Shown here: one piece after another, positions 5,577 to 52,724 of the stretch
Position numbering within the stretch: position 1 is the first letter of the stretch
Layout of the letters: each line of letters opens with the position of its first letter
Assembly (NCBI RefSeq): GCF_041355105.1
Contig: NZ_JBFUPK010000002.1
Span: 186,001 to 250,000, forward strand
Direction: 5' to 3'
Source: Terriglobus sp. RCC_193
GTDB taxonomy: Bacteria > Acidobacteriota > Terriglobia > Terriglobales > Acidobacteriaceae
DNA length: 64,000 bases
Translations under genes and position numbers: made by a program
The notes under the pieces: model-generated
Database searches by the model: none
What the model saw: only the letters and a program-made list of their open reading frames with translations
What the model was told of the DNA's origin: nothing

Positions 5577-5685
5577 GTGAATCTCTCCCGAGGCATCCGC
5601 AGAGAACGAAAGTGGCCTCGTCCTCATTGGACGTGACCACTTTGCATTTCGGCTACTCCATGAATTGCCAGATAGAACCCAATGA

Positions 5686-6696: not shown

Positions 6697-6761
6697 GCTG
6701 CTATTGTGACGGCGTTACACTCAGTTGGCGAGCCGTAAATTTTCATGCCATGGAGCTGGAC

Positions 6762-36108: not shown

Positions 36109-36168
36109 GCGGCTGAGTGTACCGCGTTCTGTGGCGTTTTCAACGGCAAGACCAGTTCGTTTCCTACA

Positions 36169-37086
36169 ATGGAAACTATGCAGATTGCACACCGCGGCGA
36201 ATATGAGTGGAAACTGCGCACACGCGCGTTGACGCTGGGGAAACGCACACTGGTCATGGGCATCCTCAATGCCACGCCGGACTCTTTCTCTGACGGCGGC
36301 GAGTACGTGTCCCCCGACACTGCCCTGCAACACGCGTTGTACATGCTGGACCACGGCGCCGACATCATCGACATTGGCGGGGAATCCACCCGCCCCGGCA
36401 CGGCAGCAGGCACCACAGACGCGGTGAGTACAGACGAAGAACAGGCCCGCATCCTGCCCCTGATTCGCAGTCTTATACACACGCGACCGGACACGATCAT
36501 CTCCGTAGACACCTACCGCGCCTCCACAGCGCGTGTTGCTATCGATGCAGGCGCAGAGATCGTCAACGATGTGAGCGGAATGCTGTGGGACCGCGACATG
36601 GCCTCTACCTGCGCGGAGTTGCGCTGCGGCGTCGTTGCCATGCACACACGCGGCCTGCCTTCTGAATGGGCCACGCAACCACGCCTGGAACCAGGCCGGA
36701 TCATTCCCACGGTGATGGACGAGCTCCGCGAAACCGCCTCGCGGCTGATGCTTGCAGGATGCAACCAATCCAGCATTGTCCTTGATCCGGGCTTTGGCTT
36801 TGGCAAAATCGGCAATGAAAACTGGACGTTGCTGCACGAGATGGATCGTCTTCAGGAACTCGGCTTCCCTCTGCTTGCAGGGCTTTCACGTAAAGGCTTC
36901 CTTGGCGACACGCTGCGAGACCCGGCTGGAGCAACACCTCCCGCGCCGCAGCAACGCGATGAAGCCACCGCAGCAGCAAACGTCATGGCCGCAATCGCGG
37001 GCGCACACATCGTCCGCGTTCACGATGTCCAGCGCACACGTGAAGCTGTCACCATCGCAGACAGACTTCGCGAAGCTGCTCTTTAA
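36169..37086 (+). CDS. folP: dihydropteroate synthase
   Basis: A 305-residue TIM-barrel enzyme that joins hydroxymethyl-dihydropterin pyrophosphate with p-aminobenzoate in folate synthesis; it is the target of sulfonamides. VMGILNATPDSFSDGG, ADIIDIGGESTRPG, ISVDTYRA, IVNDVSG, VLDPGFGFGK and GLSRKGFLG are all present, in this order. ATG 36169 and ATG 36178 are both possible starts. It is convergent with the DUF4175-like gene, seven bases apart. Confidence 0.97.
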   Translation: METMQIAHRGEYEWKLRTRALTLGKRTLVMGILNATPDSFSDGGEYVSPDTALQHALYMLDHGADIIDIGGESTRPGTAAGTTDAVSTDEEQARILPLIRSLIHTRPDTIISVDTYRASTARVAIDAGAEIVNDVSGMLWDRDMASTCAELRCGVVAMHTRGLPSEWATQPRLEPGRIIPTVMDELRETASRLMLAGCNQSSIVLDPGFGFGKIGNENWTLLHEMDRLQELGFPLLAGLSRKGFLGDTLRDPAGATPPAPQQRDEATAAANVMAAIAGAHIVRVHDVQRTREAVTIADRLREAAL

Positions 37087-37093
37087 ATCGCGT

Positions 37094-40000
37094 TTATCGG
37101 CTGCTGTTCTTGCTCAGCCGCCGATAATAATCCGCAACGGAATCGCTATATCCCGCCGGGATGGTCTGCGGAGTTCCCGTATGCGCTGTAGTTTCACCAC
37201 TGCGCTGTAACTCCAGTTCCAGGCGATCCACTGTGCGCAACACGTCGCTGTGCATCTGTTCCACCATCGCAGGATTCCCCGGGAACCGTTTCGGGTCCAG
37301 GTTCTGCATCTGCCGGGTCAACTCGGCAAGATCCTTCTGCGCCTGCGGATCATCCCGCACCATGCCGCGCAACGCCTGCAACTGTCGCAACGACTGCTGG
37401 AAATTTCGTTCCGTATCCGCGGGATTATCCGAGGTGTCTTTCGCGCCAACCGCAGTACCGCCACCAGCATAGGTGTTGTTGCCTGTATTGACGCCGCCAA
37501 AGACCGTGCCCCGATTTCCTCCGCCAGCATTCACGCGATTACCCAGATCACCAAGCTGGCCACCACGATCATCGGTAGCACCGTCGCGGCTATTACCGCG
37601 AGTCAAAGCGCCACCGCTACGATTGCCCGCTGTTTGCGCATTGCCGCTCTGACCTCCGCCATTTTGGCCGGACTGCGCACCGCCGCCTTGTTGCGATCCA
37701 TTGCCCTGCTGCTGTCCTTGGCCTTGCTGTCCGTTGCGATTCTGCGAATCATTCCCCTGCTGACCGCTGCCACCACGATTCAAGCCATTGCCCTGCCGCG
37801 AAGCCTGCATTGCCTGCAACTGCGAACGCAAACGCGCCACCTGCCCCAGTGCCGCTGTCTGATCAGGCTTGCCAGCGTCACCTGTGCGTTGTCCATTGCC
37901 ACTACCCACGGCGCCGGATGCTGCATGAAGTTGTTGCGACAACTTCGACAAGCCATCTGCAATGCCCTTCTCAGTACCGTTGCTGTTGGGATTAATGCCG
38001 CTGCGCAACCAATCCGCGCTACGCTGCATGCGATTGTCGAGATCGCTGTTGTCCATCTCCGACAACGCATCGCGCACCTTCTTCGCCGCATCCGGCTGGT
38101 TCGAAGCCATGCCCGACGCTGCGTCGCGCATGTTCTTCTGCAGCTTCGATAAGCTATCCGACAACTCTTGCCGATCACTCGCAAGCTGGTTTCGCTGCCG
38201 CATGAAGTTCTGAATGTCCTGCGGATTGAAACTGTGATTCTGTGTCTGCTTCGTGAAGTCATCCACGCGCTGCGCCTGCGCCTTTTCCTCCTGCTGAATA
38301 CGATCAGCCTCACGTGAAAGCTGTCCCATGCGATTGCCCGCAAGGTTCTGCTGCGCACCACCAAGCAAGCCCGTTGCCTCACGCAAACGCTCCGCCGCCT
38401 GCCGCTGCGCCTCCGCACTGCTGCTGTTTGCACCAGGCGCTCCCGCACGCTTCATCGCATCGCTGGCAGAGCGAACACGATTCAAAGCCTGTTCAATCCT
38501 CTGATCCGCACTCCCTTGCGATCCGCTACTACTACTGCGGGCCTGTTGCTGGCCGTTGTTGCCGGAAGAGGAAGTGCCCTGACCATTCTGCTGGCTTCCC
38601 TGTTGTCCACGTTGAGAAGAAGATTGTCCGCCCTGCGAAGAAGACTGCCCCTGTTGCCCGCTTTGCGATGAGCCCTGCTGACCATTCTGATTATTCTGTG
38701 CAATCTGCTCCATCTGCCGCTGCAACTGCTCCGCCTCACGACGCAACATCTCTTGCTGCCAACGCTCTTGAAACGCCTGCTGCGGATTCTTCTGTTGCTG
38801 CGCCAACTCCTCTTGTCGCTTCGCCAACGCATCCAGCTTCGCCAGCGCATCCTCCACCTGTTTCTGATGTTCTTCCTGCGGAGACGAGGTGCGGGCCGTC
38901 TCATACTGATTCTTCTCGGTATCTAACTCCAGGTCGAACAGCGAAGCCAGGTCGCGCCCCGTGCTGTTCCCACCACCACCTCCCCCACCTCCCTGCTGTC
39001 CAAATGCCACCTGGATCTGCCGGAACGTGGCCTCTGCGCGCAGCAACGCCTGCAATGCTTTCTGTTCTGATGCGAGAGCGCCCTGCCACTTCGTCACAGC
39101 CAGCTTCTCGCTTGCAGGCAGCATGTTCTTCGCTGCCTCCTGCATGGCTTTGTCAAAAGTAGTGAACTCCTCATTCGCTTCAGAAAGATCGCGACTGTTC
39201 ACGCGCACACTCAACGCATTCACCTGATCTCGCAGCTTACTCTGCGCGCCGGACAGAAAATCTCCCTGCGCCTTTGCAGTCTTCTCCGTGGCAGTCTTGT
39301 CGTTGATCTGCTTCCACGTCTGCTCAATCAACTCTTTCTGTCGCCGCGAAATATCCGTCTGGTTGCTGCCCTGCTGTCCGCCTCCTCCTCCACCGCCACC
39401 ACCCTGCTGCGACTGCGAAAACTCACGCTCAAACGGGTCCGCCTGGATAAACGAAATATCCGTGCGCGACTCCGCATGACCATCGCGCGCCGTCGCATAC
39501 AGGCTGATGAGGTCACCCGGCTGCATTTTGAAATCTTCCAGCCGCAATGTGTACTTCCCATCGGCATCGCGCGCACCCGGCTTGTTCAATATGGCAATGT
39601 CTTTATCCGGGCCACCATTCACGCTGTAATGCAGATGCATATCGCGCAGTCCAAACTGCGCACCGCCCTTCACGCCGATCGTCACCTCCTCGATCGGACT
39701 GGCACGATAGTCGCGCCCCGGCTTCTCAATCGCAATCTGCGGTGGTTCTGCCTTATCGGTTGCAATGAAATAGTCCTCGCTCAAGCGCACCGGCTTGCCA
39801 TCGGCGGTTCCTGCAACGTGATACGCCCCATCCTTGGCCATCGCAATCGTTCCCTTGTAACGATTGCCTTCCACAGGCTGCAGATGAATCGTGCGCCCAT
39901 CATCCAGCGAAAGGTTGCCATCCTTCAGAGGGCGGTCCATCTCGATCTGTAACTCTGCCTGCGTGCCTTCAATCGCGCGCAGATCGCCTGCATGTTCCTG

Positions 40001-40894
40001 CGTCTCTGTCTTCAACCCCGTCCACGCAGGATAGTGATACGTCACCTTCACTGATTTCACCGCGGCAAGATCCGCCACGCGCACTGTGTGATGTTCGGAA
40101 GTCAACGGCCCTGCAGTAACGTAATACTCCACATCCTCAGGCAAACCGGTAAATGTGAACTGATAGCTCGCATTGCCCGTTGCCGATGGAATCGCCTGCA
40201 TCGCCACCGGCTCCCATCCATTGCTGCTGTGAAAACGCGCAAACAACTCCACGCGTTCCGGATGCAGATTCGTCACCTCTGCCGTGATGAGTTGATCGCT
40301 ATTACGACGCACCGTCACATCGCCGGGCTGCACCGCAATCGCATACAACGGCTGCACAGCTTTTCGTTCACCACGCCACAGCAGCGACGCTCCATAACCC
40401 ACATACCCCGGCGCAGCAAAAATCATCCACAACAAGGCCGCAAGACACGCAACGCCAGCACCAGCGAACATCGCCAGCGTGGACGCTGACACAACTGAGT
40501 GCGGTTCTACATTTTCTGTGCGCGTCAGCGTGTCCGCAGCAAGCAACTCAACAAACGGATTCGCCTCTTCCTCACGCTGACGGAACGTCGTTAAACGATC
40601 TTCAAGTTCAGGATGCGAAGCCTCCACACTCGCGATCGCACGCGATGCCGTCATCCGCCACAATGGCCATGCAATCCCTGCACACGCAACAACAACAAGC
40701 ACTGCAAGCAAAACCGCGCGCGACTGCACCGTGCCCGCATGAGGAAACGCATAATGATTCAGCAGCAACACCAGCACCAGCGTCATCACCAGCGCTGTTG
40801 CAAAGAAGATCGCCACGCCACGCACGCCGGCCCGCACCTGCAACCGTTGCTGGATGCGTGCAATATAACTGCGGAGTTCGCCCTGATAACTCAT
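37094..40894 (-). CDS. DUF4175-like membrane protein with disordered Gln/Gly-rich tail
   Basis: A 1266-residue protein, last gene of the MoxR operon. It starts at ATG 40894, overlapping the BatA-like stop by four bases (ATGA); the longer frame to 40984 is rejected. The N-terminus has three transmembrane segments (GVAIFFATALVMTLVLVLLL, AVLLAVLVVVACAGIAW, MFAGAGVACLAALLWMIF). A beta-rich, probably periplasmic part follows, then long coiled coils (KRQEELAQQQKNPQQAFQER and similar). Large stretches are rich in Gln, Gly, Ser and Asn. DUF4175 membership is judged by layout and length. Role is unknown; a scaffold is likely. Confidence 0.72.
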   Translation of the reverse strand: MSYQGELRSYIARIQQRLQVRAGVRGVAIFFATALVMTLVLVLLLNHYAFPHAGTVQSRAVLLAVLVVVACAGIAWPLWRMTASRAIASVEASHPELEDRLTTFRQREEEANPFVELLAADTLTRTENVEPHSVVSASTLAMFAGAGVACLAALLWMIFAAPGYVGYGASLLWRGERKAVQPLYAIAVQPGDVTVRRNSDQLITAEVTNLHPERVELFARFHSSNGWEPVAMQAIPSATGNASYQFTFTGLPEDVEYYVTAGPLTSEHHTVRVADLAAVKSVKVTYHYPAWTGLKTETQEHAGDLRAIEGTQAELQIEMDRPLKDGNLSLDDGRTIHLQPVEGNRYKGTIAMAKDGAYHVAGTADGKPVRLSEDYFIATDKAEPPQIAIEKPGRDYRASPIEEVTIGVKGGAQFGLRDMHLHYSVNGGPDKDIAILNKPGARDADGKYTLRLEDFKMQPGDLISLYATARDGHAESRTDISFIQADPFEREFSQSQQGGGGGGGGGQQGSNQTDISRRQKELIEQTWKQINDKTATEKTAKAQGDFLSGAQSKLRDQVNALSVRVNSRDLSEANEEFTTFDKAMQEAAKNMLPASEKLAVTKWQGALASEQKALQALLRAEATFRQIQVAFGQQGGGGGGGGNSTGRDLASLFDLELDTEKNQYETARTSSPQEEHQKQVEDALAKLDALAKRQEELAQQQKNPQQAFQERWQQEMLRREAEQLQRQMEQIAQNNQNGQQGSSQSGQQGQSSSQGGQSSSQRGQQGSQQNGQGTSSSGNNGQQQARSSSSGSQGSADQRIEQALNRVRSASDAMKRAGAPGANSSSAEAQRQAAERLREATGLLGGAQQNLAGNRMGQLSREADRIQQEEKAQAQRVDDFTKQTQNHSFNPQDIQNFMRQRNQLASDRQELSDSLSKLQKNMRDAASGMASNQPDAAKKVRDALSEMDNSDLDNRMQRSADWLRSGINPNSNGTEKGIADGLSKLSQQLHAASGAVGSGNGQRTGDAGKPDQTAALGQVARLRSQLQAMQASRQGNGLNRGGSGQQGNDSQNRNGQQGQGQQQGNGSQQGGGAQSGQNGGGQSGNAQTAGNRSGGALTRGNSRDGATDDRGGQLGDLGNRVNAGGGNRGTVFGGVNTGNNTYAGGGTAVGAKDTSDNPADTERNFQQSLRQLQALRGMVRDDPQAQKDLAELTRQMQNLDPKRFPGNPAMVEQMHSDVLRTVDRLELELQRSGETTAHTGTPQTIPAGYSDSVADYYRRLSKNSSR

Positions 40895-42924
40895 GCATCC
40901 TCCCGCTGTGTGGCCATGTAGCTGCCGGAGAGCGTTGTCTCCGCAATCGCTACGAGGAGTGCCAGCAGCATAACCCACCACCACAAGCTCACGCGCTGAA
41001 ATTTCGCATCATTAGTCGCTGCAACAGTTTGACTCTGCGCTTCACCGCTGTTGCTTCCCGCCCACAACTGCTGCAAATCCTGCGGCATCGGCTCCAGATC
41101 GCTTTCCAGTCGATTCGCATTCACGCCAATCACCGCATCCCGACTGCTGGCAAAATGCACACTGTAAAAACCAGTGCGCTCCAACCGGAATGTCTGCGCC
41201 GTACGCGTTTCCTCCAACGACAGCGCACGCTTCATGTCCGGATCGATTACTTCGACATTCGCTGTCGATGCATTTCCAGAACGCAATACTACAAAGCTAT
41301 CCACCATGCGCGAACCAGCCAGTCGCTCTGCACCGGCAAGATACCGCGCGCTGCGATCGACAAACGCAACAAACACCGGATGCAGCGGCAGATCGTTCGT
41401 CAGGTTATCTAACCCTGTGGTCAGCAGCAGTACATGCCCTTCGCCCATCGCACGATCCAGCAGCAACGGCGTTCCATCATTCAGCCGCGCCAGCACACGC
41501 GCATTCGACGCATCCACCTGCGATGCATAAAGGATCTTCGCCTCTGCCCATCCGCCGTTGTCACGCCCCGGCTGCGCATCCTGCAGCGCAGGATGTGTAA
41601 AGTCCACCTGCCCCACCGTTGCCGGCGCATTCGCACTATAGCTGCGCGTATCCTTCACATCGCTGCCCCACAGCGGGATACGCGCATGATGCCCCGCAGC
41701 CGTTCCCAGCGCGATCAGGACATTGCCACCCTTCTGCACGTAGTCCTGCAGATTGTGTTCAAAGATGGAAGGCAGCGCCACCGCATCCGACAAGACCACA
41801 AACGCAAATCGCGAAGGATCAAGATCATTCGCAGCAGCCGCACTCGTACTCTGCAACGTGAATGAAGCACGCGCCGCGGCCGCCAGCGCCGAACCGTAAT
41901 ACACCTCCGAACGAGCATCGCCAATGCCATGCAGAAACAACACCTTCTCCGGATCAGAACGTCGGATCGCAAAATAACTCACATCGTCTGCAGCAAACGC
42001 ATCGCCGCCATCAATGCGTGCCTCACAGCGATTGAATCCATAAGCCACATCCAACGGCGCAAACTCCACCGTGGCACTGCCGTTCTCCGGCACGTCCACC
42101 TGCTTCGTTGCAACAATGTGCCCATTCACCAGCAGCGACACACTTTTCTTCGCCGCACGCGCATGGAATCCAGTCACCGTAACGCGTGCGCGTGACTGCT
42201 TCGGGTCTTTCACATCCGCAATCTCCGCGGGCGCATCCACACTGGCCACAGTCCAGTTCTCCGTGGAATTCCCTTTTGCCACCTGGTGCAACGTCAGCAC
42301 CACATCCGGCGGCAACACCATGTCCGCAAAGCTCGCAGGCACTGCAGACTTCTGCATGTCGCTGAACAGATGCAGGTCCGCAGGCTGCCTGCTCCCCTCG
42401 CGCAGCGAACGCAGCGTGCGCGCCAGTTCGCCATAACTCGCATGGCCATCGCCTGGCTGAATGCTCTCCAGCGCGGACCGCAGCTGCGACCCATCTTCCG
42501 TCGCTTGCGTCAGCACCTGGACTTGGCCACCCAACGCAATCACCTGTGCCCGCTGCGAAGCAGTCCGTTTCGCCAGCATCTCCAGCGCCGCACGCTTCGC
42601 ATCTTCAAAGCGAGTACCCGCACGCATGCTGTACGAGTTATCCAGCACAATCATCAGCAACCGTCCGGCAGGATCAGCCGCAGGCCGCTTCACAAATGGA
42701 TTCGCAAATGCCAGCACCACCAGCAACACCAGCGCCGCACGCAATACAAATAACAACAGGTACTTCAATCGCCGATGCTTCGTGGAGCTCTGCGTGCCGC
42801 GTTCAAAAAACATCAGCGACCCGACAGGACGCGGCACCGTGACATGACGCCGCAGCAGGTGCACAAACACCGGCACCCCCAGCGCAAGAAATCCCCCAAG
42901 AAACCACGGCGCAAGAAATCCCAC
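40891..42924 (-). CDS. BatA-like VWA membrane protein
   Basis: A 677-residue protein. The N-terminal double-membrane-segment domain is of the BatA type (FLAPWFLGGFLALGVPVFVHLLRR, YLLLFVLRAALVLLVVLAFANPF). A VWA domain follows with the metal site DNSYS (95-99). The C-terminus has a glutamine-amidotransferase-like segment and a last transmembrane helix (WWWVMLLALLVAIAETTL). GTG 42924 has AAAGGAG twelve bases upstream. It likely binds substrates or partners of the MoxR ATPase at the membrane. Confidence 0.85.
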   Translation of the reverse strand: MGFLAPWFLGGFLALGVPVFVHLLRRHVTVPRPVGSLMFFERGTQSSTKHRRLKYLLLFVLRAALVLLVVLAFANPFVKRPAADPAGRLLMIVLDNSYSMRAGTRFEDAKRAALEMLAKRTASQRAQVIALGGQVQVLTQATEDGSQLRSALESIQPGDGHASYGELARTLRSLREGSRQPADLHLFSDMQKSAVPASFADMVLPPDVVLTLHQVAKGNSTENWTVASVDAPAEIADVKDPKQSRARVTVTGFHARAAKKSVSLLVNGHIVATKQVDVPENGSATVEFAPLDVAYGFNRCEARIDGGDAFAADDVSYFAIRRSDPEKVLFLHGIGDARSEVYYGSALAAAARASFTLQSTSAAAANDLDPSRFAFVVLSDAVALPSIFEHNLQDYVQKGGNVLIALGTAAGHHARIPLWGSDVKDTRSYSANAPATVGQVDFTHPALQDAQPGRDNGGWAEAKILYASQVDASNARVLARLNDGTPLLLDRAMGEGHVLLLTTGLDNLTNDLPLHPVFVAFVDRSARYLAGAERLAGSRMVDSFVVLRSGNASTANVEVIDPDMKRALSLEETRTAQTFRLERTGFYSVHFASSRDAVIGVNANRLESDLEPMPQDLQQLWAGSNSGEAQSQTVAATNDAKFQRVSLWWWVMLLALLVAIAETTLSGSYMATQREDA

Positions 42925-42962
42925 GGCTTAACGCATCTCCTTTCCACGCTGATCGTTCGTCG

Positions 42963-43853
42963 TCACGCATTCCCTCGCTGGCGCAGCGTCAAATACTCAC
43001 GCAACGCTTGATCCAATGGCTGATCCGTTAGCAACAGCCGATAATCCAGTCCGGCAGCACGCGCCTTCGAGCGCAGCGCTTCGATGTGCGCCTGCATTTT
43101 TTGTCGATACGTCGTCTTCGCATACTCCGGAATCACTTCAATGCGTTGGTCCGTTTCAAGATCAACAAGCACTGAGGCTGATCTCAACTCCATCTGCACT
43201 TCCTGCGGGTCCAGCACATGAAACAGCACCACTTCATTCCCGTGAAAGCGCAACGGCTCAATCGTCTTCACAATCAACTCCGGCTCTTCATAAAAATCCG
43301 AGATCACCACGGCAATCCCGCGCCGGTGTAACAACTGCTGAAAGTGATGCAGCGGCTTACCAAAATCCGTCCGCGCTCGCGGCTCTGCGTGTTCGAGCCC
43401 GCCCAGTAATCGCGCCATCTGCCCTGACCGCGCGGAAGGCCGCACATACTCGCGCACCTCGTCATCAAACACGATCAGCCCCGCGGCATCACGCTGCTTC
43501 TTGATCGCCATGTAAAACAACGAAGCCGCAAGATATCGCGCATAATCCATCTTGGAAACATTCGCGCTCGCCAACTGCATGCTGTTGCTGGCATCCAGCA
43601 GCACCGTCAACTGCGAATTCGTCTCGCCGCGATATCGCTTGATGTAAGTGCGATCGGTGCGTCCAAACAGGTTCCAGTCCACATGCCGCAGATCATCACC
43701 CGGCGTATACGCGCGGTACTCCGCAAACTCCTGCGAGAAGCCGAAGTCTGGTGACCGGTGCAGCCCGCCCACAAAACCATCCACCACCGTCTTCGCCAGC
43801 AAGTCCAGCGAAGAGATGGCCGACAACACCGCAGGTTGTAAAAATCGCTGCAA
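42963..43853 (-). CDS. DUF58 protein
   Basis: A 296-residue protein with the DUF58 signature YTPGDDLRHVDWNLFGRTDR (about 49-68), followed by a VWA-like strand with DASNS (87-91), a good metal site. The start is TTG 43853 with AAGGAG six bases upstream. DUF58 proteins are constant partners of MoxR ATPases. The stop of the MoxR gene lies three bases upstream. Confidence 0.92.
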   Translation of the reverse strand: MQRFLQPAVLSAISSLDLLAKTVVDGFVGGLHRSPDFGFSQEFAEYRAYTPGDDLRHVDWNLFGRTDRTYIKRYRGETNSQLTVLLDASNSMQLASANVSKMDYARYLAASLFYMAIKKQRDAAGLIVFDDEVREYVRPSARSGQMARLLGGLEHAEPRARTDFGKPLHHFQQLLHRRGIAVVISDFYEEPELIVKTIEPLRFHGNEVVLFHVLDPQEVQMELRSASVLVDLETDQRIEVIPEYAKTTYRQKMQAHIEALRSKARAAGLDYRLLLTDQPLDQALREYLTLRQRGNA

Positions 43854-43856
43854 CCG

Positions 43857-44879
43857 TTACTCCTTCGGCCGTGGCACAGTGGCAATCAACCGCGTAAGAA
43901 TGTTGTCCGCATCCACACGCTCTGACTCCGCATGGAAATTCAACAGGATGCGATGCCGCAGCACAGGAATCACTACGGCAGTAATGTCCTCCTGCGCCAC
44001 GTGATATCGCTTCCGCGACAACGCACGCGCCTTCGCAGCCAACACAATAAACTGCGCCGCACGGATACTGCCGCCATAGCTCACATACTTCTTTACAAAC
44101 TCCGGCGCATTGTCACTCTTATGTCGCGTCGCACGGACAATGTCCACCACGTAACGCGCCAGCGTCTCCGAGATGGGCACCTCACGCACCAGGCTTTGAA
44201 AATCAAGCAGCTCTTCCGCAGAAGTAACAGGAGTAATGATGGGCACGCGTGTTGTCGTGGTTAAATCAACAACCTTCAACTCATCCTCAGAACTCAGGTA
44301 ATCCAACACCGCATTGAATAGGAAGCGATCCAACTGCGCCTCCGGCAGCGGATAGGTCCCTTCCAGTTCAATCGGGTTCTGCGTAGCCAGCACAAAGAAG
44401 GGCGACGGCAGTTTGTAAATATGCCCACGCACCGTGCATGACCGCTCCTGCATCGCCTCCAGTAGCGCAGCCTGCGTCTTTGGCGGTGTGCGATTGATCT
44501 CATCGGCAAGAATCACATTGCCAAAGATTGGCCCCTGCACAAACGTCCATCGACGATGCCCGGTCGAAGCGTCTTCTTCAATAATGTCCGTGCCGGTAAT
44601 GTCCGAAGGCATCAGGTCAGGCGTGAATTGAATGCGCCGAAACTCCAGCCCCAGCGCCTCTGCAACCGTGCGCACCATCAGCGTCTTCGCCGTCCCAGGC
44701 ATACCGGTCAGCAAACAATGACCACCGACAAACAATGCGATGAGCACCTGCTCAATCACATCATCCTGCCCAACAATGACCTGGCGAACCTGCTGGACAA
44801 TGCTCTCGCGCACCGCATGGAATCGTTCAATGCGCTGCTGAAGTTGTGCTGCATTCGGAGGAAGATCGGTGAAAGCCAT
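43857..44879 (-). CDS. MoxR-family AAA+ ATPase
   Basis: A 340-residue MoxR ATPase, a chaperone-like AAA+ protein. Walker A is GMPGTAKT (59-66), Walker B is ILADEINR (123-130), sensor 1 is FVLATQNPIE, and the C-terminal lid has GGSIRAAQFIVLAAKARAL. A GTG at 44900 extends the frame by seven codons; ATG 44879 has AAGGA upstream and is preferred. It uses ATP to mature or remodel partner proteins, together with DUF58 and VWA proteins encoded next to it. Confidence 0.93.
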   Translation of the reverse strand: MAFTDLPPNAAQLQQRIERFHAVRESIVQQVRQVIVGQDDVIEQVLIALFVGGHCLLTGMPGTAKTLMVRTVAEALGLEFRRIQFTPDLMPSDITGTDIIEEDASTGHRRWTFVQGPIFGNVILADEINRTPPKTQAALLEAMQERSCTVRGHIYKLPSPFFVLATQNPIELEGTYPLPEAQLDRFLFNAVLDYLSSEDELKVVDLTTTTRVPIITPVTSAEELLDFQSLVREVPISETLARYVVDIVRATRHKSDNAPEFVKKYVSYGGSIRAAQFIVLAAKARALSRKRYHVAQEDITAVVIPVLRHRILLNFHAESERVDADNILTRLIATVPRPKE

Positions 44880-44896
44880 CTGGTCTCGCGTTCCTT

Positions 44897-47071
44897 TCAC
44901 TTCGTTTGTTGCAATTCAAGTAAGAGCTTCTGCGCAGGACGAAAATTCGGAGCTGCCTCAAGCGCCAGCAACACCGTCTCCTGCGCCTTATCGCGTTGTC
45001 CCGCTGCCATGTATGCAGATGCCAGGTCATACTGCGCGCCCGCCATATCCAGCGGATGCGTTGCCACTGCCGCCGCATATTCACGCACTGCGCCGTCATA
45101 CTGCTTCGCGGCAATTAACAGCGAGCCAAGATGCTTATGCAGCTCCGTGTCCCGCACGGGATAGACATAAAGGATGTGCGTCAACGTTGCGATAGCAGCA
45201 GGCGCGTCTCCGGCCTTCTCCTGCAATGCTGCAAGCCTTTTCAACAATTGCGGCTGCTGTCCACCCGCATGCATGTAGGCGTTCAACGCCTTCACTTCTT
45301 CCGCAGCATTGCCCTTCACATGCTGCGCATCCGCAAGCAACTCATACGCATTCGCATCGCCCGTGTACTCGGGATACAGAGCAATCACCGCAGGCGTATT
45401 CGCAATCACATCGTCATACTGCTTCGCTTCAGCAGCAGCCACCAGCGCTTTCAGCTTCGCGCGCCACGCATCAAAGCCCTGTGCTTCCTTGCCGTACTGC
45501 TTATCGATCGAAGCAAGGAACTGGGTATCAAATTCCTCCGGCGAAAGATGCAGTACCGACTGCAACGCCTGCTTCGTATCCTGCCCCGCTGCATACGCGC
45601 GCACCATCTCCAGCAGCTTCGCCTCACCTGCCGTGTTGCTGATGTAATCGCAAATGGCACCGGCCTGAAAGTAACTCACCAGCACCTGCCCCGGATACTC
45701 CTGGTGTACAAATCCGCGGTCCAACTTCTCCACTGGCATCAACTTCTTATCGCGGATGGCCAGCAGAATATCCGGTGTCACACGGTCTCTCCACTCCGCC
45801 GAGCGCTGCCCTTCCTCATGCACCGCAAGCCCTTCCGTAAACCATCGTGGCACGCGTTGATTCGTCGCCGTAATGATGTACGCATGACTCATCTCGTGCC
45901 ACAGCGTCGCGCCCCAATTGAACTCGCCCGGCTTGCGTCCTGACGGCGAATCCATCGCGATCACCTGCCCGAACGTCACGCCCAGCGCACCCAGCCCCGG
46001 CATGCCCATAGTGCGCACAGCAAAGTCTTCATGGTTGGGATACATCTCCACCTGCACTGGGCCATGCAGTTCCATCGCATACTTCTTCGAGTACGTCGCA
46101 AGAATGGTATGCAGTTCAGCCTGCACATAGGGCGCCAGCAGATCGCTCTCCTTCGGATCAAGGATAAGAACTGTGTCCGCATCCTTCACCGTCTTAAACT
46201 TCGCCAGCGAATCCAGCAACCGCAGACTGTTCACTGTTGCTGGATCGCGGTAGCCATTGTTATAGGCAAGCTCCAATTCTTTTTGCGGTTCATCCGCGCG
46301 TCCCAACCGCATCTCCTCGATACCCAACGCTGAATGCGCTGCCCATAACTCCGGCTGCTTTTCTGTTGCCTTGCGGTAACATTCGGCCGCATCGTTAAAC
46401 CGGTAATGCAGCTCCAGGTGATGCGCCATCTGCATGTACGCCGCACCATCCTGCGGATTCACCGCAGCAATCTTCGCCGTCCATACATCTGCAGAACGAT
46501 CTGCGATCAACTCCAGCGCGCCATGTGTCGCCATAGCGCTGGTCGCTTCCGCATCCAGTGCGAGTGCGGCATCCGCTTCCTTTACTGCCAATTCGCGATT
46601 GTCGTTATCCAACGCAATCTTCGCTGCAAGCTCATGCGCCGCAGCCAGCTTCGGATCATGCTCCAGCGCCTTTGCAATCGAGGCATTGGGATTGCCGCTG
46701 TAATCCTCCGCCTCCACAATGGCCAGCCCCAGATACGCCTGTGCATTATTCGGATCTTCCTGCAATGCCTCGCGAAACAGGTCCGCCGCCTCGGCATTGT
46801 TGAAACGCTCATGCAGCAACATGCCCCAGCGCACCTTGTAGATCGCAGGACTATTCGCAGCCGTCGTAGCATCGCGGAAATTCTCATTCGCGCTTTGCCA
46901 ATCCTCTAACCCCCAGGCACCTTCCGCACGTTCGTACGTACTGCCGCTCTGCGTCAACTGCGTAAAACAGGCGCGCGCGGACTGGCCATGATGCACCAGT
47001 TTCCAGCAGTCCGCAGGAGTCACGGCGTGCGCAGATGAAGCAAACATCACGAAGGCGAGAAGGGATTTCAT
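44897..47071 (-). CDS. exported TPR protein with HExxH metallopeptidase domain
   Basis: A 724-residue exported protein with a signal peptide (MKSLLAFVMFASSAHA). It has TPR repeats on both sides of a gluzincin-type peptidase (MA-like) domain: HEMSH at 392-396 with the third ligand Glu413 in FTEGLAVHEE. N-terminal repeats end near residue 270 and C-terminal repeats run from about 560. The start overlaps the caspase-like stop by four bases (ATGA). It should act in the periplasm, with TPRs binding partners or substrate. The end overlaps the region of the MoxR start. Confidence 0.85.
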   Translation of the reverse strand: MKSLLAFVMFASSAHAVTPADCWKLVHHGQSARACFTQLTQSGSTYERAEGAWGLEDWQSANENFRDATTAANSPAIYKVRWGMLLHERFNNAEAADLFREALQEDPNNAQAYLGLAIVEAEDYSGNPNASIAKALEHDPKLAAAHELAAKIALDNDNRELAVKEADAALALDAEATSAMATHGALELIADRSADVWTAKIAAVNPQDGAAYMQMAHHLELHYRFNDAAECYRKATEKQPELWAAHSALGIEEMRLGRADEPQKELELAYNNGYRDPATVNSLRLLDSLAKFKTVKDADTVLILDPKESDLLAPYVQAELHTILATYSKKYAMELHGPVQVEMYPNHEDFAVRTMGMPGLGALGVTFGQVIAMDSPSGRKPGEFNWGATLWHEMSHAYIITATNQRVPRWFTEGLAVHEEGQRSAEWRDRVTPDILLAIRDKKLMPVEKLDRGFVHQEYPGQVLVSYFQAGAICDYISNTAGEAKLLEMVRAYAAGQDTKQALQSVLHLSPEEFDTQFLASIDKQYGKEAQGFDAWRAKLKALVAAAEAKQYDDVIANTPAVIALYPEYTGDANAYELLADAQHVKGNAAEEVKALNAYMHAGGQQPQLLKRLAALQEKAGDAPAAIATLTHILYVYPVRDTELHKHLGSLLIAAKQYDGAVREYAAAVATHPLDMAGAQYDLASAYMAAGQRDKAQETVLLALEAAPNFRPAQKLLLELQQTK

Positions 47072-47991
47072 TGATCCAACTCCCCCTGCACCCGCGCCAG
47101 TTCCAGCAACGCTGCCGTCAACTGTTTCTTGTAGTCGGCGGCATCCATCGCGGCCTTGTTGTACTTCAGCACATCAATCTTCTGTTCCAGCTCTTCCTTC
47201 TTTGCCAGCAGCGACTGCTTCCCAGGATCAGCCGCTGCCTTCTGCGCCGCACCATAACGCAGCAGCGTAAAACTGGCCATCAACTGCCCTTGACCATTCC
47301 CTGCATCGCGCACTGCATCCCCGCGGCCGGTGTCGTTGAACACTGCATGTTCTGTTGCCAGCCGCTTCTGCGACTCATAAAACGCAGCCGTCTTACGCGA
47401 CGCATATGTGTAAGCCTCTGCCGCCGTCAGCGATTCATTCTTGTCCACATCCGCGGAAGTATCCTGCAACGCCTCGACAAAGTAGCGCGCGAAGACGGTT
47501 GCGTTCTTCTCCGTGCCGGACTTCGTCGCAGCAATCACAATGCGTCCGCTGCGTTCCAATGCCGCCACAGCGCCGCCGCTCGAACTCGTCGTGTCCACCA
47601 CCAGTTGGCGTTTCGCCGCAATGCGATCGCACATCGCAGCAATCTCTGTCGCGGTCAGATCCGGACCAACCAGATTGAACTTGTATTCCGTTCCATCAAA
47701 CGATCCGTGACCAATCAACACCAGCACAAAGTCATCGGTCGCCGTGGCCTGCTGCGCTACGTTCGACAATGCCGTACGTAACTGTGCCGCGGTAGCCTGC
47801 GCTCCGGTCAGAGTGACAACATGCGCCGCTGCCACACTACGAAAAACCTTGTCCAGGTCCTTGGCATTCGCGTTGAAGCGCTGCTCATAATCCGGCTCAC
47901 CTCCCAACCCCGCAACGGTGACATAGTACGTCGCAGCCGCGGCATGCATCGTGAAGACGAAGCTCGCAAGGGACAACAGAAGTCGCTTCAT
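47068..47991 (-). CDS. exported caspase-like (C13/C14) protein with Cys-to-Ser change
   Basis: A 307-residue exported protein with a signal peptide (MKRLLLSLASFVFTMHAAAA). It keeps the caspase-hemoglobinase fold features, with catalytic His95 in VLIGHGSFDG. The strand that normally carries the Cys (DACHSGG-like) reads DTTSSSGG, placing Ser136 where Cys is expected, so peptidase activity is doubtful. A C-terminal coiled coil (LAKKEELEQKIDVL) follows. ATG 47991 overlaps the upstream stop by four bases, which fixes the start. It could bind substrates or act as a regulator for the TPR peptidase. Confidence 0.7.
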   Translation of the reverse strand: MKRLLLSLASFVFTMHAAAATYYVTVAGLGGEPDYEQRFNANAKDLDKVFRSVAAAHVVTLTGAQATAAQLRTALSNVAQQATATDDFVLVLIGHGSFDGTEYKFNLVGPDLTATEIAAMCDRIAAKRQLVVDTTSSSGGAVAALERSGRIVIAATKSGTEKNATVFARYFVEALQDTSADVDKNESLTAAEAYTYASRKTAAFYESQKRLATEHAVFNDTGRGDAVRDAGNGQGQLMASFTLLRYGAAQKAAADPGKQSLLAKKEELEQKIDVLKYNKAAMDAADYKKQLTAALLELARVQGELDQ

Positions 47992-50282
47992 ACGACACCC
48001 CATTTCCGTCGCATCAGCCATTCTGCCAATGGCAGCGCCAGCAGCAGCACAAACACAATCGGCATGTTCCAAAGCTCTTTGATGGAACGAACGGAGATAC
48101 CTGCCTCGGAATACGAGATATCCTGCGGCAGATTTTTTAGGTTGTTCCCGGCCCAGGCACTGCCGCCCGTATCGCGTGCAAGCTGCTCCAGCAGCTTCGG
48201 ATTTGCCTCCGTGTGAAATGCCTCTGCCACACCGTCCTCGCGCTGAAACGTGGCGGTATCGCGACCAAGCTCATCCTTCTCAGAGGTAGCCGTAACCTCT
48301 GCAAGATACGGCCCCGCTTTCTCCGCTGTATAACTCGCGGTGTACAACCCCGGAGTCTCTTGTGATGGCTTCATCTCCAGCGCCGCATCCACGCCAGCAG
48401 GCCCGGTCACATGCGCCATCACATGCGCATCGCGCGCCGGTTGAAACTGCTTGTCATACACATTCGCCGTAATGTCGATGTGTCCCGTATCCGACAGCGT
48501 GCGCGCCGATGTGTTCACGCTCACAGCGCCCGGTGTATCCGCCACCAGCCAGCGCAGCAACTGCTGAAAGAACAAATTGTGCGAAGGATCACCCAACGCC
48601 TCACTCATCTGCCATCGCCATGTGCCGCCGCTCGCCAGGATTGCGGTGCGCCCATTGCCATAGTTCTGCGTAATAAGAAACGGCATACGCTTGCCGCCGC
48701 TGCTCATCTCCGCAAGCACCGTCGCACCCGGTTTCGCGCTGCCGGGATCTTCGAAGTCCGCAAGATACGTTAGTTTTCTCCAACGCTCCGCATTCTTCTG
48801 CGGGTCTTCCAGCAACCGTGTCATAGGCGATGCCACCCCAGCGTCCGTCAGATTCACCACGGCCGCATTGCGTTTGAAGTGATTCGTCCCTCCAGGAAGA
48901 AACGTGGGCATCAATTCATTGAGTGATGACGCAGTCCATCCACCATCACTCAATGACTGCCTTCCCCCAAGAAACAGGACGCCGCCGCCGCGCCGATCCA
49001 CATACTCGCGTATCAACTCCTGTTGTGCCGGCGTGAAGTAATCCGCCGCAACGGAGCCAATGATGATGCCGCTATACGCAAACAAGTCTTCAGCCTTCGT
49101 GGGGAATCCGTCGGCAAGTTCATCCGGCCCGCTGATGCCCTGCCGGTAAATTTTGTTCTCGCTGGTGCGCAGCATGGACACAATCTGCACGGAGGGATCA
49201 TCTTCCTCTGCGCGACGCAGAAAACGGAACTGCCATCGCGGTTCGCCTTCCACATACAGGATGCGGCGCTTCGCATCACGCACCAGCACAGGCCGCGTCA
49301 ACGCATTGTTCTTCGCGTTGCTCTCATCTGCGAACGGCTCCACAGAAAACACCAGCGTCCGCGCGTCCGCATCGCCAGCAGAGAAGAACAGCGGCTCTGT
49401 CTGCATCACACCATCGCGTTGCAACGTGACGCTTTTCGCCGCAAGCGTTCGATCACCGTCACGAATCGTCAACGTCGCCTGCCGATTCGCATAGCCATGC
49501 TGCACGAACGTCAGCGACGCAGTGGTGCGCGCATTCACCACTGTGTTTGGCGCTACGCTAACGTCTTCCATTTCGAGATCACGCAACGGCTTGTCTGAAC
49601 CAAACACAACGGTATGCACCGGCAGTCGGCGATTCCGCAACGCCTGCATTGCTGCCAATGAAATACCGCTGCCGCCAAGCCCCGCAGCGTTCTCGCTGCC
49701 GTCCGTGAGCAGAACAACAGCGCCCACAGGCAGGTCCGCAGTCTCCGTAGCAAGCTGTTGCAACCCATCGCCCAGGTGCGTTGCACTTCCCGTGGCTGCA
49801 ACACCATGCAGCGAATCGATTTTCGTCAGCTTGCTGTCCAGTGTGTATAGCCGCGTGTGAAATCGCTTGTTTAAACCATCCAGAACGCCGCCATGCAACG
49901 CATTCAGCGCAGCATCCACGCGCGGTTTACCATTCACATCCGCTGTCGCCATGGAACGCGAATCATCCACCACCACCGCAATGATGTTCTGCTGCGAACT
50001 CAGTTCCGCAACCGACAGCGCAGGCTGCCACAGCAGCAGCAGAATCAGCGCCACCAGCGCTGACTGCAACGCCCACACACTCCACGCGCGTCGATGCGTC
50101 ATTGCCGGTGTTTCTTTCCGGTACGGCTTGATCTGCCGCAAACGATACCGAATCAAAACTCCAAGCCCCACCAGCGCAAGCACCACAAGCAACGGCAGCA
50201 GCCACACAGGCCACCGCGACAGGAACACAAGATGCCCCTTCGCAAACACCGTACTCGGATACTTGAAGAGCAGCGGAAACAT
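47988..50282 (-). CDS. membrane VWA/glutamine-amidotransferase-like protein
   Basis: A 764-residue protein. Two N-terminal transmembrane segments (WLLPLLVVLALVGLGVLI, ALQSALVALILLLLW) are followed by a VWA domain with the metal site DDSRS (106-110). Then a beta-rich region and a GATase1-like domain follow (IIIGSVAADYF, GGGVLFLGGRQSL). A transmembrane helix ends the protein (IVFVLLLALPLAEWLM). It shows the layout typical of large VWA proteins of Bat-type operons. Start ATG 50282 lies fifteen bases after the DUF4159 stop. Confidence 0.82.
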   Translation of the reverse strand: MFPLLFKYPSTVFAKGHLVFLSRWPVWLLPLLVVLALVGLGVLIRYRLRQIKPYRKETPAMTHRRAWSVWALQSALVALILLLLWQPALSVAELSSQQNIIAVVVDDSRSMATADVNGKPRVDAALNALHGGVLDGLNKRFHTRLYTLDSKLTKIDSLHGVAATGSATHLGDGLQQLATETADLPVGAVVLLTDGSENAAGLGGSGISLAAMQALRNRRLPVHTVVFGSDKPLRDLEMEDVSVAPNTVVNARTTASLTFVQHGYANRQATLTIRDGDRTLAAKSVTLQRDGVMQTEPLFFSAGDADARTLVFSVEPFADESNAKNNALTRPVLVRDAKRRILYVEGEPRWQFRFLRRAEEDDPSVQIVSMLRTSENKIYRQGISGPDELADGFPTKAEDLFAYSGIIIGSVAADYFTPAQQELIREYVDRRGGGVLFLGGRQSLSDGGWTASSLNELMPTFLPGGTNHFKRNAAVVNLTDAGVASPMTRLLEDPQKNAERWRKLTYLADFEDPGSAKPGATVLAEMSSGGKRMPFLITQNYGNGRTAILASGGTWRWQMSEALGDPSHNLFFQQLLRWLVADTPGAVSVNTSARTLSDTGHIDITANVYDKQFQPARDAHVMAHVTGPAGVDAALEMKPSQETPGLYTASYTAEKAGPYLAEVTATSEKDELGRDTATFQREDGVAEAFHTEANPKLLEQLARDTGGSAWAGNNLKNLPQDISYSEAGISVRSIKELWNMPIVFVLLLALPLAEWLMRRKWGVV

Positions 50283-50297
50283 GTTCAGGAAAGCGCC

Positions 50298-51101
50298 TCA
50301 GTGCGTCATGCCATACAGGATGTAGTCCAGCCCCACACGAAACGCCATGGAGGCAAACGGTTCCGGGTAGTAAGGATCATCGGCCCACTCCCACGCGTCG
50401 CCCAGGTGCATGTTGTGACAGATCGCCACCATGATGCGGCCATCCTTATCGCGGATGGCGCGCCACTTCGGCTGATAGCCATCCTTCTCATAGGTGCGAT
50501 GCGTGCGGATGTAATGCTCGCCGGGAATCTGCATCTTGTCGTCCACGTCATACAGCGTGTGAAATATCTCATCGTTCGATTGCAGATCTTCCACCGGGCT
50601 GTCTGGCAACACCTGTCTCATGCCGCGCATGAAGTTGTCCCAGTCTTCCGTGCCATGGAAGTCATCCACCATCAGGAAACCGCCCTTCAACAGATAGTCG
50701 TGCAGCCGCTTCGCTTCAGCATCCGTAAAGGTCCACGTCTGCACCTGCACCGCATAAATCCATGGATAGTTGAAGATGTCATCGGAATCCAGGTTCACCA
50801 CCTGCTCATAAGGCCGCCCATCAATGCGCGTAAGCCGATGCATGGCAATCAGGAACTGCCGATCGGCCTTGGGATAATCGCGCGCCCAGGAAGAGCGTCC
50901 GAAGTACCCACCGCCATATCCGCCATAGCTTGCAAGAGAAGACGCAAACGCCAGCCGCGACCAGTAAAACTCTGACTTCACATTGGAAGGCGAATCGTCA
51001 CTGCCAAAGCCGAAATTGCCCACGCGCTGCCACGCACGAACACCAACAGCACACACGATTCCGCACAGGGCGGCGAGCAATGCAATGCGCGAAAGCTTCA
51101 T
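50298..51101 (-). CDS. DUF4159 exported protein, first gene of the MoxR operon
   Basis: A 267-residue exported protein with a signal peptide (MKLSRIALLAALCGIVCAVGVRA). The DUF4159 domain is recognisable by GGYFGRSSWARDYPKADRQF, FMLV-like KGGFLMVDDFHG and the C-terminal FRVGLDYILYGMTH. DUF4159 has a GATase-like fold and travels with MoxR/BatA genes. GGAGG lies about fifteen bases before ATG 51101. The promoter should lie in the 200-base divergent gap with the multicopper oxidase. Confidence 0.85.
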   Translation of the reverse strand: MKLSRIALLAALCGIVCAVGVRAWQRVGNFGFGSDDSPSNVKSEFYWSRLAFASSLASYGGYGGGYFGRSSWARDYPKADRQFLIAMHRLTRIDGRPYEQVVNLDSDDIFNYPWIYAVQVQTWTFTDAEAKRLHDYLLKGGFLMVDDFHGTEDWDNFMRGMRQVLPDSPVEDLQSNDEIFHTLYDVDDKMQIPGEHYIRTHRTYEKDGYQPKWRAIRDKDGRIMVAICHNMHLGDAWEWADDPYYPEPFASMAFRVGLDYILYGMTH

Positions 51102-51305: not shown

Positions 51306-52724
51306 TTGGACCGGCGACACCTTCTGAAGATGGGATCTCTCGCCGCGCTCGGCCACCTTGCCCAGCCGTGCGTCCCCCTCTTTGCGCAACAGCAACAAAC
51401 CAAAGCCGACTTTGAACTCCGTATCGCTCCCGTGCAGGTTGACCTGGATCAGCAGCGCTCGCTCTCCACCATTGGCTATAACGGCTCGGCCCCCGGCCCG
51501 CTATTGCGCATGAAGGCAGGCAAGCCCGTCACCGTGGATATCTTCAACGACACCGACACCCCAGAACTCGTCCACTGGCACGGCATGACCATACCCGCCG
51601 AGGCCGACGGTACCGAAGAAGAGCAATCGCCGTTCGTTCCTCCGCACGGACATCGACGCGTCACCTTCACGCCCGGCCCTTCCGGGCTGCGCTGGTACCA
51701 CTCGCACGCCATGGCCATGGACGACCTGCACAAAGGCGGCTACACGGGCCAGTTCGGCCTGGTTTACGTGGAAGACGGCAACGATAAAGGCAGTTACGAT
51801 CAGGAACTCTTCCTGACCCTGCGCGACTGGGAGCCGTTCTTCTCCGGCAGCATGGAAGACGATGACGACGACACGCATGACGCCCCCATGCTGGAACAAC
51901 CGCCAAAAATCAACAACGATCCCAACGGTCTCGAAGTCGTCTCCGTCACGTACAGCATCAATGACAAAGCGCTAGGCGCAGGTGATCCCATCCGCGTGAA
52001 ACAGGGGCAGAAGCTGCTCATTCATTTCTGCAACGCCAGTCCCATTGAAAATCGGCGCGTCGCTCTTGCGGGCCACACCATGCGGGTCATCGGCATGGAC
52101 GGTAATCCCGTTCCCAGGCCCACAGAACGCAGCAGCGTCTTTCTCGGCGCAGGCGAACGCATCGATGTGGAAGTCACCATGAACAACCCCGGCGTCTGGA
52201 TTCTGGGCGGTACAGAAAAGATGGTGCGCGAAGGCGGCCTCGGCTGCATCGTGGAATACGCCGGACAAAAGAAACAGCCCACGTGGATCGATCCGAAAAA
52301 AGAACCGTGGGACTACAGCAACTTCGCGCTGCCGCAATCCACGCAGCCTGCACCGAAGAACATCCTCGACATGCACTTTGAGAAACTGCCGCGCGGCATG
52401 GGCAAATTCAACGTGTGGACCATCAACGGCAAACCCTACCCGCACGAAAACGAATACGCGCTGCAACGGGGCGAGCGCTATCGCCTCATCATGCGCAATT
52501 GGAGCGACGATGCCCACCCCATGCACCTGCACCGCCATCTTTGGGAGGTCGTCGAAATGAACGGTAAGAAGATGGGCGGATTGATGAAGGACACCGTCGT
52601 CGTCCCCTACTACGGTCGCGCCGTCGTTGACTTCACCGCAGACCAGCCCGGCCTTTCGCTCTTTCACTGCCACATCCAGCAGCACATGGACTACGGCTTC
52701 AAGGCCCTCTTCCGTACCACATAG
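51306..52724 (+). CDS. multicopper oxidase
   Basis: A 472-residue exported multicopper oxidase with a twin-arginine-like signal (MDRRHLLKMGSLAALG). All copper motifs are present: HWHG (90-93), HSH (132-134), HPMHLHRH (404-411) and HCHIQQHMD (454-462). The residue ten after the type-1 Cys455 is Phe465, where CueO has Met. An acidic run (EDDDDD) near 184 is unusual. TTG 51306 has GAGG six bases upstream and is chosen. It may oxidise copper(I), phenols or metals. Confidence 0.9.
   Translation: MDRRHLLKMGSLAALGHLAQPCVPLFAQQQQTKADFELRIAPVQVDLDQQRSLSTIGYNGSAPGPLLRMKAGKPVTVDIFNDTDTPELVHWHGMTIPAEADGTEEEQSPFVPPHGHRRVTFTPGPSGLRWYHSHAMAMDDLHKGGYTGQFGLVYVEDGNDKGSYDQELFLTLRDWEPFFSGSMEDDDDDTHDAPMLEQPPKINNDPNGLEVVSVTYSINDKALGAGDPIRVKQGQKLLIHFCNASPIENRRVALAGHTMRVIGMDGNPVPRPTERSSVFLGAGERIDVEVTMNNPGVWILGGTEKMVREGGLGCIVEYAGQKKQPTWIDPKKEPWDYSNFALPQSTQPAPKNILDMHFEKLPRGMGKFNVWTINGKPYPHENEYALQRGERYRLIMRNWSDDAHPMHLHRHLWEVVEMNGKKMGGLMKDTVVVPYYGRAVVDFTADQPGLSLFHCHIQQHMDYGFKALFRTT

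Follow-up and report, generated by a model that had tools for sequence, protein, structure and literature searches.

Eight adjacent genes of Terriglobus sp. RCC_193 very likely share a function, as judged from the gene evidence below, and we put at about one-half the probability that their products form one envelope machine encoded by a variant MoxR/DUF58/BatA/VWA-GATase operon. The genes lie within a 64,000-nucleotide stretch (here called the window) of the 4.2 Mb genome, as eight minus-strand open reading frames (ORFs) at positions 37094-51101. In order of transcription (51101 to 37094), they encode a DUF4159 protein, a VWA/GATase protein, a caspase-like protein, a TPR peptidase, a MoxR ATPase, a DUF58 protein, a BatA-type protein, and a DUF4175-like protein. 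MoxR next to DUF58 and membrane VWA proteins is the arrangement of MoxR/DUF58/BatA envelope operons. An earlier note on this DNA had described eight nearly gapless minus-strand genes, and the ORF coordinates agreed with that description. The note had also counted three 4-base ATGA overlaps (junctions 47988/47991, 47068/47071, and 40891/40894); all three were present, but the total is four, the additional overlap being GTGA at the TPR peptidase/MoxR junction (44897/44900). The remaining three intergenic gaps are 15, 3, and 38 bases, and this spacing suggests a single transcript. Neither a terminator scan (18 sites versus 13.2 expected, standard deviation 4.0) nor a promoter scan (2 sites versus 5.6 expected) gave counts clearly above those of shuffled sequences.

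To determine how far the set is conserved, genome sets for 150 relatives were read from match lists by eye and then tallied. The caspase-like protein was found in 46 relatives, the TPR peptidase in 47 (E ≤ 1e-30), and the BatA-type protein in 48 (E ≤ 1e-20), and the 48 relatives with a caspase-like or TPR protein were the same 48 that had a BatA-type orthologue. The misfits G102, G137, and G145 were draft genomes, 75-85% complete, and the G145 contig broke off within the TPR gene. DUF4159 was extra in one genome (G048) and missing from another (G099). Because the genome sets coincide, each of the 150 relatives either has the entire eight-gene unit or lacks it altogether. Within the genus, 13 of 19 genomes had the unit; in five of the six that lacked it, no trace was found in the 15-19.5 kb around folP (E ≤ 1e-5), and in two of these unit-less genomes the folP to dacB-like distance was 0.25-0.7 kb. 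Gene order was identical in 40 operons from relatives as far as the contigs extended. Moreover, a scan gave 229 loci, of which the 80 best (the named loci) were kept; the VWA/GATase gene was directly upstream of the caspase-like gene in all 80 and the TPR gene was downstream in 75; of the other five, three were truncated by a contig end and two (L176 and L177) were second, partial copies. DUF4159 was the least constant member, lying just upstream in 24/31 and 56/63 loci with room for it. The earlier note had listed as supporting evidence a conserved order in other acidobacterial genomes, which the 40 relatives' loci and the 80 named loci displayed, and had named MoxR operons of close relatives without both exported genes as grounds for rejection, a situation at odds with the 48-to-48 agreement. 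Since gene order is conserved across families, we conclude that a chance arrangement is excluded.

Conservation was also examined in 396 Acidobacteriota genomes, with limits of E ≤ 1e-40 for the caspase-like protein, E ≤ 1e-60 for the VWA/GATase protein, and E ≤ 1e-50 for the TPR peptidase. The caspase-like protein was detected in 112 genomes, every one of which also had the VWA/GATase protein and the TPR peptidase; conversely, it was found in 112 of the 116 VWA/GATase genomes and 112 of the 114 TPR peptidase genomes. The list of caspase-like matches, sorted by E-value, reached well past the 1e-40 limit, and at E ≤ 1e-3 there were matches in at least 143 genomes, the extra ones including generic caspases. 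The exceptions to co-presence were two genomes of one genus with a divergent VWA/GATase protein (G339 and G503), one with a partial VWA/GATase protein (G225), one with a partial TPR protein (G274), and one with both proteins in which a caspase fragment (E 9.7e-11) lies just upstream of the TPR gene (G298). The order in the class of the window organism was DUF4159-VWA/GATase-caspase-TPR-MoxR-DUF58-BatA-DUF4175. Among 20 deep loci, six had the order VWA/GATase-caspase-TPR-DUF4159-MoxR-DUF58-BatA-DUF4175 and four more had an extra DUF4159 gene at the head, and a circular permutation with all eight genes (TPR-DUF4159-MoxR-DUF58-BatA-DUF4175-VWA/GATase-caspase) was found in 8/8 loci picked for it. 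The presence and absence of the two proteins predicted to be exported (caspase-like and TPR) was nearly identical to that of the VWA/GATase protein, in keeping with the earlier view that they belong with the MoxR operon. Their description as an insertion had to be abandoned, as most lineages in which the set was found have the pair within it, and it is no oddity of the window.

The caspase-like protein matched Peptidase_C14 at 21.6 bits against a cut-off of 21.4, and family members taken singly matched Peptidase_C13 in 16/32 cases and C14 in 5/32 at E ≤ 0.1. An AlphaFold2 (AF2) model had a mean predicted local distance difference test score (pLDDT) of 91.5 (76 sequences). Foldseek comparison of the model with the PDB gave, as the best among the matches listed, MALT1 paracaspase (E 5.5e-08) and legumain with a probability of 1.00, the TM-score by target for legumain reaching 0.63 among the same matches. 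The predicted structure therefore has the clan CD fold, with a C-terminal extension that the model renders mainly as two long helices (256-277 and 284-306); at least 40 residues follow position 255 in 153/153 sequences. For the alignment, identical sequences were dropped, reducing 230 matches to 152 distinct ones, and residues were counted on 153 distinct sequences. In some rows of this and the other alignments, the start is an estimate or the first codon is not Met. His95, Ser138, Asp181, Glu192, and Glu214 were invariant. The Cys of metacaspase-4 (SDSCHSGG) and of acidobacterial caspases (LDTCASG in L283 and DCCYSG in L274) aligned at Ser136, and this site was S in 137 sequences, P in 7, A in 3, N in 3, and E, T, and G in 1 each, but never C. 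C-x-S-G was present in the aligned stretch of 10 of the 16 weakly matching same-phylum caspase ORFs among the matches listed; the others fell short of the stretch or differed (e.g., L278 and L284). Thr135, at a strand end, had been considered as the Cys site and was rejected, because hidden Markov model alignments to metacaspase-4 and the same-phylum caspases placed it at Ser136. The catalytic Cys of active C14 and C13 enzymes was absent from both sites in all 153 sequences; nearby, Cys occurred at site 137 in 8, site 133 in 4, and site 134 in 2 (14 cells). An active cysteine caspase was rejected on these grounds, and with either residue the alignment points to an active site lacking a strictly conserved nucleophile. 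A loop at residues 181-192 fits a pattern that we take to be that of EF-hands, and this putative loop may bind calcium.

The TPR protein was predicted to be the only one of the eight that resembles a working peptidase. In an alignment from which sequences of fewer than 500 residues were left out, the HExxH motif and a downstream Glu ligand, the combination typical of Peptidase_MA gluzincins, were conserved. The model consists of helical repeats, an alpha/beta core at approximately residues 293-423, and then more helical repeats; its 50 best Foldseek matches were all repeat scaffolds, and no title among them named a peptidase. BepA-type periplasmic metallopeptidases are likewise envelope proteins in which an HExxH peptidase carries TPR arms; unlike them, the domain here is Peptidase_MA, has Glu as the third ligand, and is placed between two TPR arms. 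The earlier note had reported an HEMSH motif and a pseudo-caspase, and both were found: H392-E-M-S-H396 with Glu413 in the former case, a retained His and a missing Cys in the latter. Its proposal of a proteolytic module fared less well. The TPR half looks intact, but because the caspase-like member is without an active-site Cys, we conclude that only half of such a module can be proteolytic.

For the remaining proteins, topology was called from hydropathy and charges only. The metal ion-dependent adhesion site (MIDAS) of VWA domains was present in the VWA/GATase protein (DxSxS in 36/36 aligned sequences, the window protein included), the DUF58 protein (33/33), and the BatA-type protein (32/32). 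The VWA part of the VWA/GATase protein fell under the Pfam cut-off (17.9 versus 27 bits). The residue after its conserved Gly409 was S in 33, T in 2, and N in 1 of the 36, without the Cys that a glutaminase motif presumably has near this position. The VWA/GATase and BatA-type proteins each had three hydrophobic segments, two near the N terminus that flank a basic loop and a third near the C terminus, the DUF58 protein had no hydrophobic segment, and the DUF4159 protein is predicted to be exported or anchored by a single N-terminal one. In MoxR, the Walker B DE and the Walker A G, P, G, A, K, and T were each found in 35/35 sequences, and one marginal hydrophobic segment lies directly ahead of Walker A. 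Two further MoxR genes of the genome above the Pfam cut-off (L216 and L217) were 37-41% identical to the operon MoxR, and neither had a neighbor resembling the operon partners at E ≤ 1e-8 in 14-kb stretches. The DUF4175-like protein matched PF13779 with E 0.00021, under the cut-off (19.9 versus 27.3 bits), and its C-terminal half has long Q/S/G-rich stretches.

Table 1. Features of the eight-gene set and its surroundings (window positions unless a record is named)
Feature	Position	Strand	Evidence
DUF4159 protein, 267 amino acids (aa)	50298..51101	-	PF13709 E 1.3e-40; hydrophobic segment 3-21
VWA/GATase1-like protein, predicted inner-membrane, 764 aa	47988..50282	-	PF07090 (GATase1_like) E 1.2e-07; three hydrophobic segments
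Predicted caspase/legumain-fold pseudo-protease, 307 aa, C-terminal two-helix extension	47068..47991	-	PF00656 (Peptidase_C14) E 0.0002
His95 of G-H-G motif, catalytic-His position	47707..47709	-	153/153
Ser136, aligned with catalytic Cys of metacaspase-4 and same-phylum caspases	47584..47586	-	alignments
EF-hand-like loop D-x-D-x-N-x-x-x-x-x-x-E, residues 181-192 (putative)	47416..47451	-	153/153 fit D1 [DN]3 [DNSG]5 E12
TPR - Peptidase_MA - TPR metallopeptidase (predicted), 724 aa	44897..47071	-	PF13485 (Peptidase_MA_2) + TPR E 5.4e-12; AF2 pLDDT 93.7
HEMSH zinc motif H392-E-M-S-H396	45884..45898	-	H392/E393/H396 140/140
Third ligand Glu413 (predicted)	45833-45835	-	138/140, remaining two gapped there
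MoxR-type AAA+ ATPase, GTG start	43857..44900	-	PF07726 (AAA_3) E 2.5e-61
DUF58 VWA protein, predicted cytosolic, TTG start	42963..43853	-	PF01882 E 1.9e-40
BatA-type membrane VWA protein, GTG start	40891..42924	-	PF07584 (BatA) E 2.2e-13, PF13519 (VWA_2) 5.7e-16
DUF4175-like membrane protein, 1266 aa	37094..40894	-	three hydrophobic segments; orthologues in same place
D-Ala-D-Ala carboxypeptidase-like (dacB-type) and folP-like genes (presumed names)	34474-37086		at 3' end of the set
Divergent multicopper-oxidase-like gene (presumed name)	51306-52724		flanks the set
Eight-gene set L319, Gemmatirosa kalamazoonensis plasmid	NZ_CP007129.1 732172-762840

The MoxR/DUF58/BatA core is already known, and the eight-part set with its pseudo-caspase appears to be new within the literature searched. 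The four-gene operon RL3499-RL3502 (cmdA-D) of Rhizobium leguminosarum has DUF58 and membrane VWA partners, and to our knowledge no caspase-like protein or TPR metallopeptidase. Like the set described here it is a MoxR operon (MRP subfamily), and its mutants reportedly have envelope and cell-shape defects. Two papers cite the operon as one that cells require to maintain their shape and an intact membrane (PMC3893208, PMC5700661); the first of these also likens MoxR proteins to chaperones and states that RL3499 matters for both membrane integrity and cell morphology (PMC3893208). Bat (Bacteroides aerotolerance) operons, found also in Leptospira and Borrelia, share MoxR, DUF58, BatA-type VWA, and TPR proteins with the set, but their TPR proteins are not termed peptidases in the available part of the source (PMC5700661). 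When models of BatB, BatC, BatD, and BatE were compared with the eight proteins, none was above its cut-off (BatC_Lepto, 16.3 versus 175 bits) and BatA alone passed. Peptidase_C14 members (caspases, metacaspases, and orthocaspases) and legumain (C13) share fold and His with the caspase-like family, which differs from them in having no Cys at the aligned active site in 153 sequences. Bacterial pseudo-orthocaspases are similar in that they have a caspase fold whose catalytic residues are lost, the Cys being replaced by Ser in some of them; their YS, YA, FS, and QC pairs all lack the His, however, according to the accessible text (PMC6426788). The family described here retains His in 153/153 and is thus not of the YS type, in which His and Cys are both lost. 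The string "Acidobacter-" does not occur in the accessible text of that paper (PMC6426788). Literature searches over titles and abstract openings gave no description of the eight-part set or the pseudo-caspase family; the literature searched held no mention of DUF4159, and MoxR, DUF58, and caspase occurred together only in a single paper, on bifidobacteria.

Because of the role of RL3499, the membrane VWA parts, and the exported partners, the set may be an ATP-driven envelope-maturation machine with the TPR peptidase as its periplasmic output. MoxR and the DUF58 protein would be cytosolic; the BatA-type, VWA/GATase, and DUF4175-like proteins would be in the inner membrane, the first two with large domains facing the periplasm according to the positive-inside pattern; and the DUF4159, caspase-like, and TPR proteins would be exported. 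In such a complex, MoxR with DUF58 would use ATP to remodel the membrane VWA proteins and the TPR metallopeptidase would act on an exported client, cutting or maturing it. The pseudo-caspase would serve as an adaptor between the membrane VWA protein and the metallopeptidase, binding client or peptide and docking the peptidase onto the VWA/GATase protein, its most constant neighbor. This division of labor could extend to a relay in which cytosolic MoxR/DUF58 switches the membrane VWAs and a calcium-sensing pseudo-caspase passes the signal to an envelope-processing TPR metallopeptidase, an elaboration that we consider speculative and rather unlikely.

Several observations weigh against a single envelope machine. 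The caspase-like protein was missing, at E ≤ 1e-40, from 284 of 396 genomes, and the set is therefore dispensable in general. The VWA/GATase gene adjoined the caspase-like gene at 115 of 142 places phylum-wide; a statement that the pair always lies beside the VWA/GATase gene was withdrawn, as it held in 80/80 named loci but only 115/142 places overall. Sixteen of the 27 places without a downstream caspase gene were inspected, and 12 (L293-L299 and L304-L308), from families farther from the window organism, were MoxR operons with neither exported gene. Of the others, one was a permuted operon with no caspase gene after it (L301), one was too short (L300), and two (L302 and L303) lacked a caspase-like gene but had DUF58, BatA-type, and weakly matching genes next to a VWA/GATase gene of divergent sequence. 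Two MoxR operons (L251 and L255) had the caspase-like gene without the TPR gene, which sits in a permuted operon elsewhere, and the partial copies L176 (VWA/GATase-caspase-DUF58-BatA) and L177 (DUF4159-VWA/GATase-caspase-BatA) lacked peptidase and MoxR; the genomes of these two also carry a pair-containing copy, which has all eight genes in one (L270) and in the other (L271) is cut off by the contig end after its first six. DUF4159 was missing at the head in 7/31 and 7/63 loci with room. Moreover, support for export of the TPR protein is weak: 21/38 sequences passed a crude hydrophobicity test, and since MoxR also passed in 15/36, the test has little power. The partial copies hint that the VWA/GATase, caspase-like, and BatA-type proteins may work without an adjacent ATPase gene.

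The MoxR operons without the pair could indicate two loosely related units, namely the MoxR/DUF58/BatA core and, in many lineages under the same promoter but otherwise independent, the caspase-TPR pair, and TPR-caspase pairs detached from any such operon do occur (L309 and L310; by coordinates in G162, G277, and G398; and, outside the 12 genomes, in G442). The 12 genomes nevertheless retained both exported genes elsewhere, in a permuted operon, as a detached pair, or on separate contigs (G353), so that linkage is optional and co-presence nearly obligatory. Not one of the 112 genomes with the caspase-like protein lacked the VWA/GATase protein or the TPR peptidase, and VWA/GATase-caspase adjacency persisted in permuted operons and partial copies. 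We therefore find two separate units doubtful and favor one machine.

Another possibility is that the caspase-like protein hydrolyzes substrates through a His-Ser dyad set in its caspase fold, giving the operon two working peptidases. His95 and Ser138 in 153/153 sequences and Ser at the Cys-equivalent site in 137/153 would suit such a dyad, but site 136 is P, A, N, E, or G in 15/153, position 135 is Ala in 8, and Ser138 aligns with the S of the C-x-S-G motif rather than with the nucleophile. Caspases with Cys changed to Ser are generally expected to be essentially inactive, and we regard this possibility as very unlikely. Still less probable is a role in cell death or phage conflict in which the caspase-like protein would be the effector, akin to the MoxR-vWA ternary systems, which, in the part of the source available, likewise combine MoxR, VWA, and caspase-like domains (PMC7159879). 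PADLOC yielded only two weak AAA+ matches to MoxR; MoxR scored 205.8 bits with AAA_3 against 45.2 with bpMoxR, the latter still above the bpMoxR cut-off of 27. The candidate effector is without the Cys, and some parts look exported by prediction. Moreover, when the eight proteins were compared with Pfam and PADLOC, the matches included none of the third components listed in the available text of that source (VMAP, STAND/iSTAND, FtsH, or beta-propeller), and the word "Acidobacteria" is absent from its main text as available (PMC7159879). We conclude that one envelope machine remains the preferred reading.

Beyond Acidobacteriota, coverage consisted of plasmid records and one scan that kept the best 80 loci. 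When 72,556 plasmid records were searched with tblastn, a single record matched the caspase-like and the TPR protein alike, namely plasmid 1 (1.1 Mb) of Gemmatirosa kalamazoonensis (Gemmatimonadota), which carries all eight genes in the order of the other acidobacterial families. Its TPR peptidase has HELAH and SEG. Its caspase-like gene lies in two frames, the N-terminal part in one and the sequence from approximately residue 76 in another, which reflects either faulty sequencing or a broken gene; His and the acidic loop are present in the second part, and its site is without Cys. Caspase-like proteins 54-62% identical to that of Terriglobus were also present in loci whose metagenome-assembled genome titles name Rhodanobacteraceae, Acidimicrobiia, or Gammaproteobacteria (L168, L186, L191, L194, L198, and L206), titles that are probably wrong.

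The set ends 7 bases from a convergent gene that we take to be folP-like, and its 5' end is approximately 200 bases from a divergent gene that we take to encode a multicopper oxidase. The latter flank recurs in four further loci of the genus (L096, L098, L103, and L105), and the presumed dacB-like and folP-like genes remain close in two relatives without the set (L289 and L290). Three loci of one family (L294, L306, and L307) have two more DUF4159 genes after the DUF4175-like gene at the operon end. In some families approximately 1.2-1.4 kb of extra DNA parts MoxR from DUF58 or the caspase-like from the TPR gene (L119, 8733-9951; L125, approximately 5340-6750).

MoxR/BatA operons are widespread, and their envelope task has long been vague. 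Near-invariant partners suggest missing periplasmic parts, namely an intact-looking peptidase and a dead caspase with a calcium-type loop next to its usual VWA neighbor, and this partner set turns a vague operon into testable protein pairs. A bacterial family that keeps the caspase fold and His without the catalytic Cys throughout a phylum also bears on the origin and purpose of pseudo-proteases. The conserved eight-gene set is carried by soil bacteria related to Terriglobus. If the calcium-sensing relay is true, the dead caspase would be an ancient bacterial protease regulator, retained within its eight-part system by every acidobacterial lineage that has the set and occurring in at least one further phylum.

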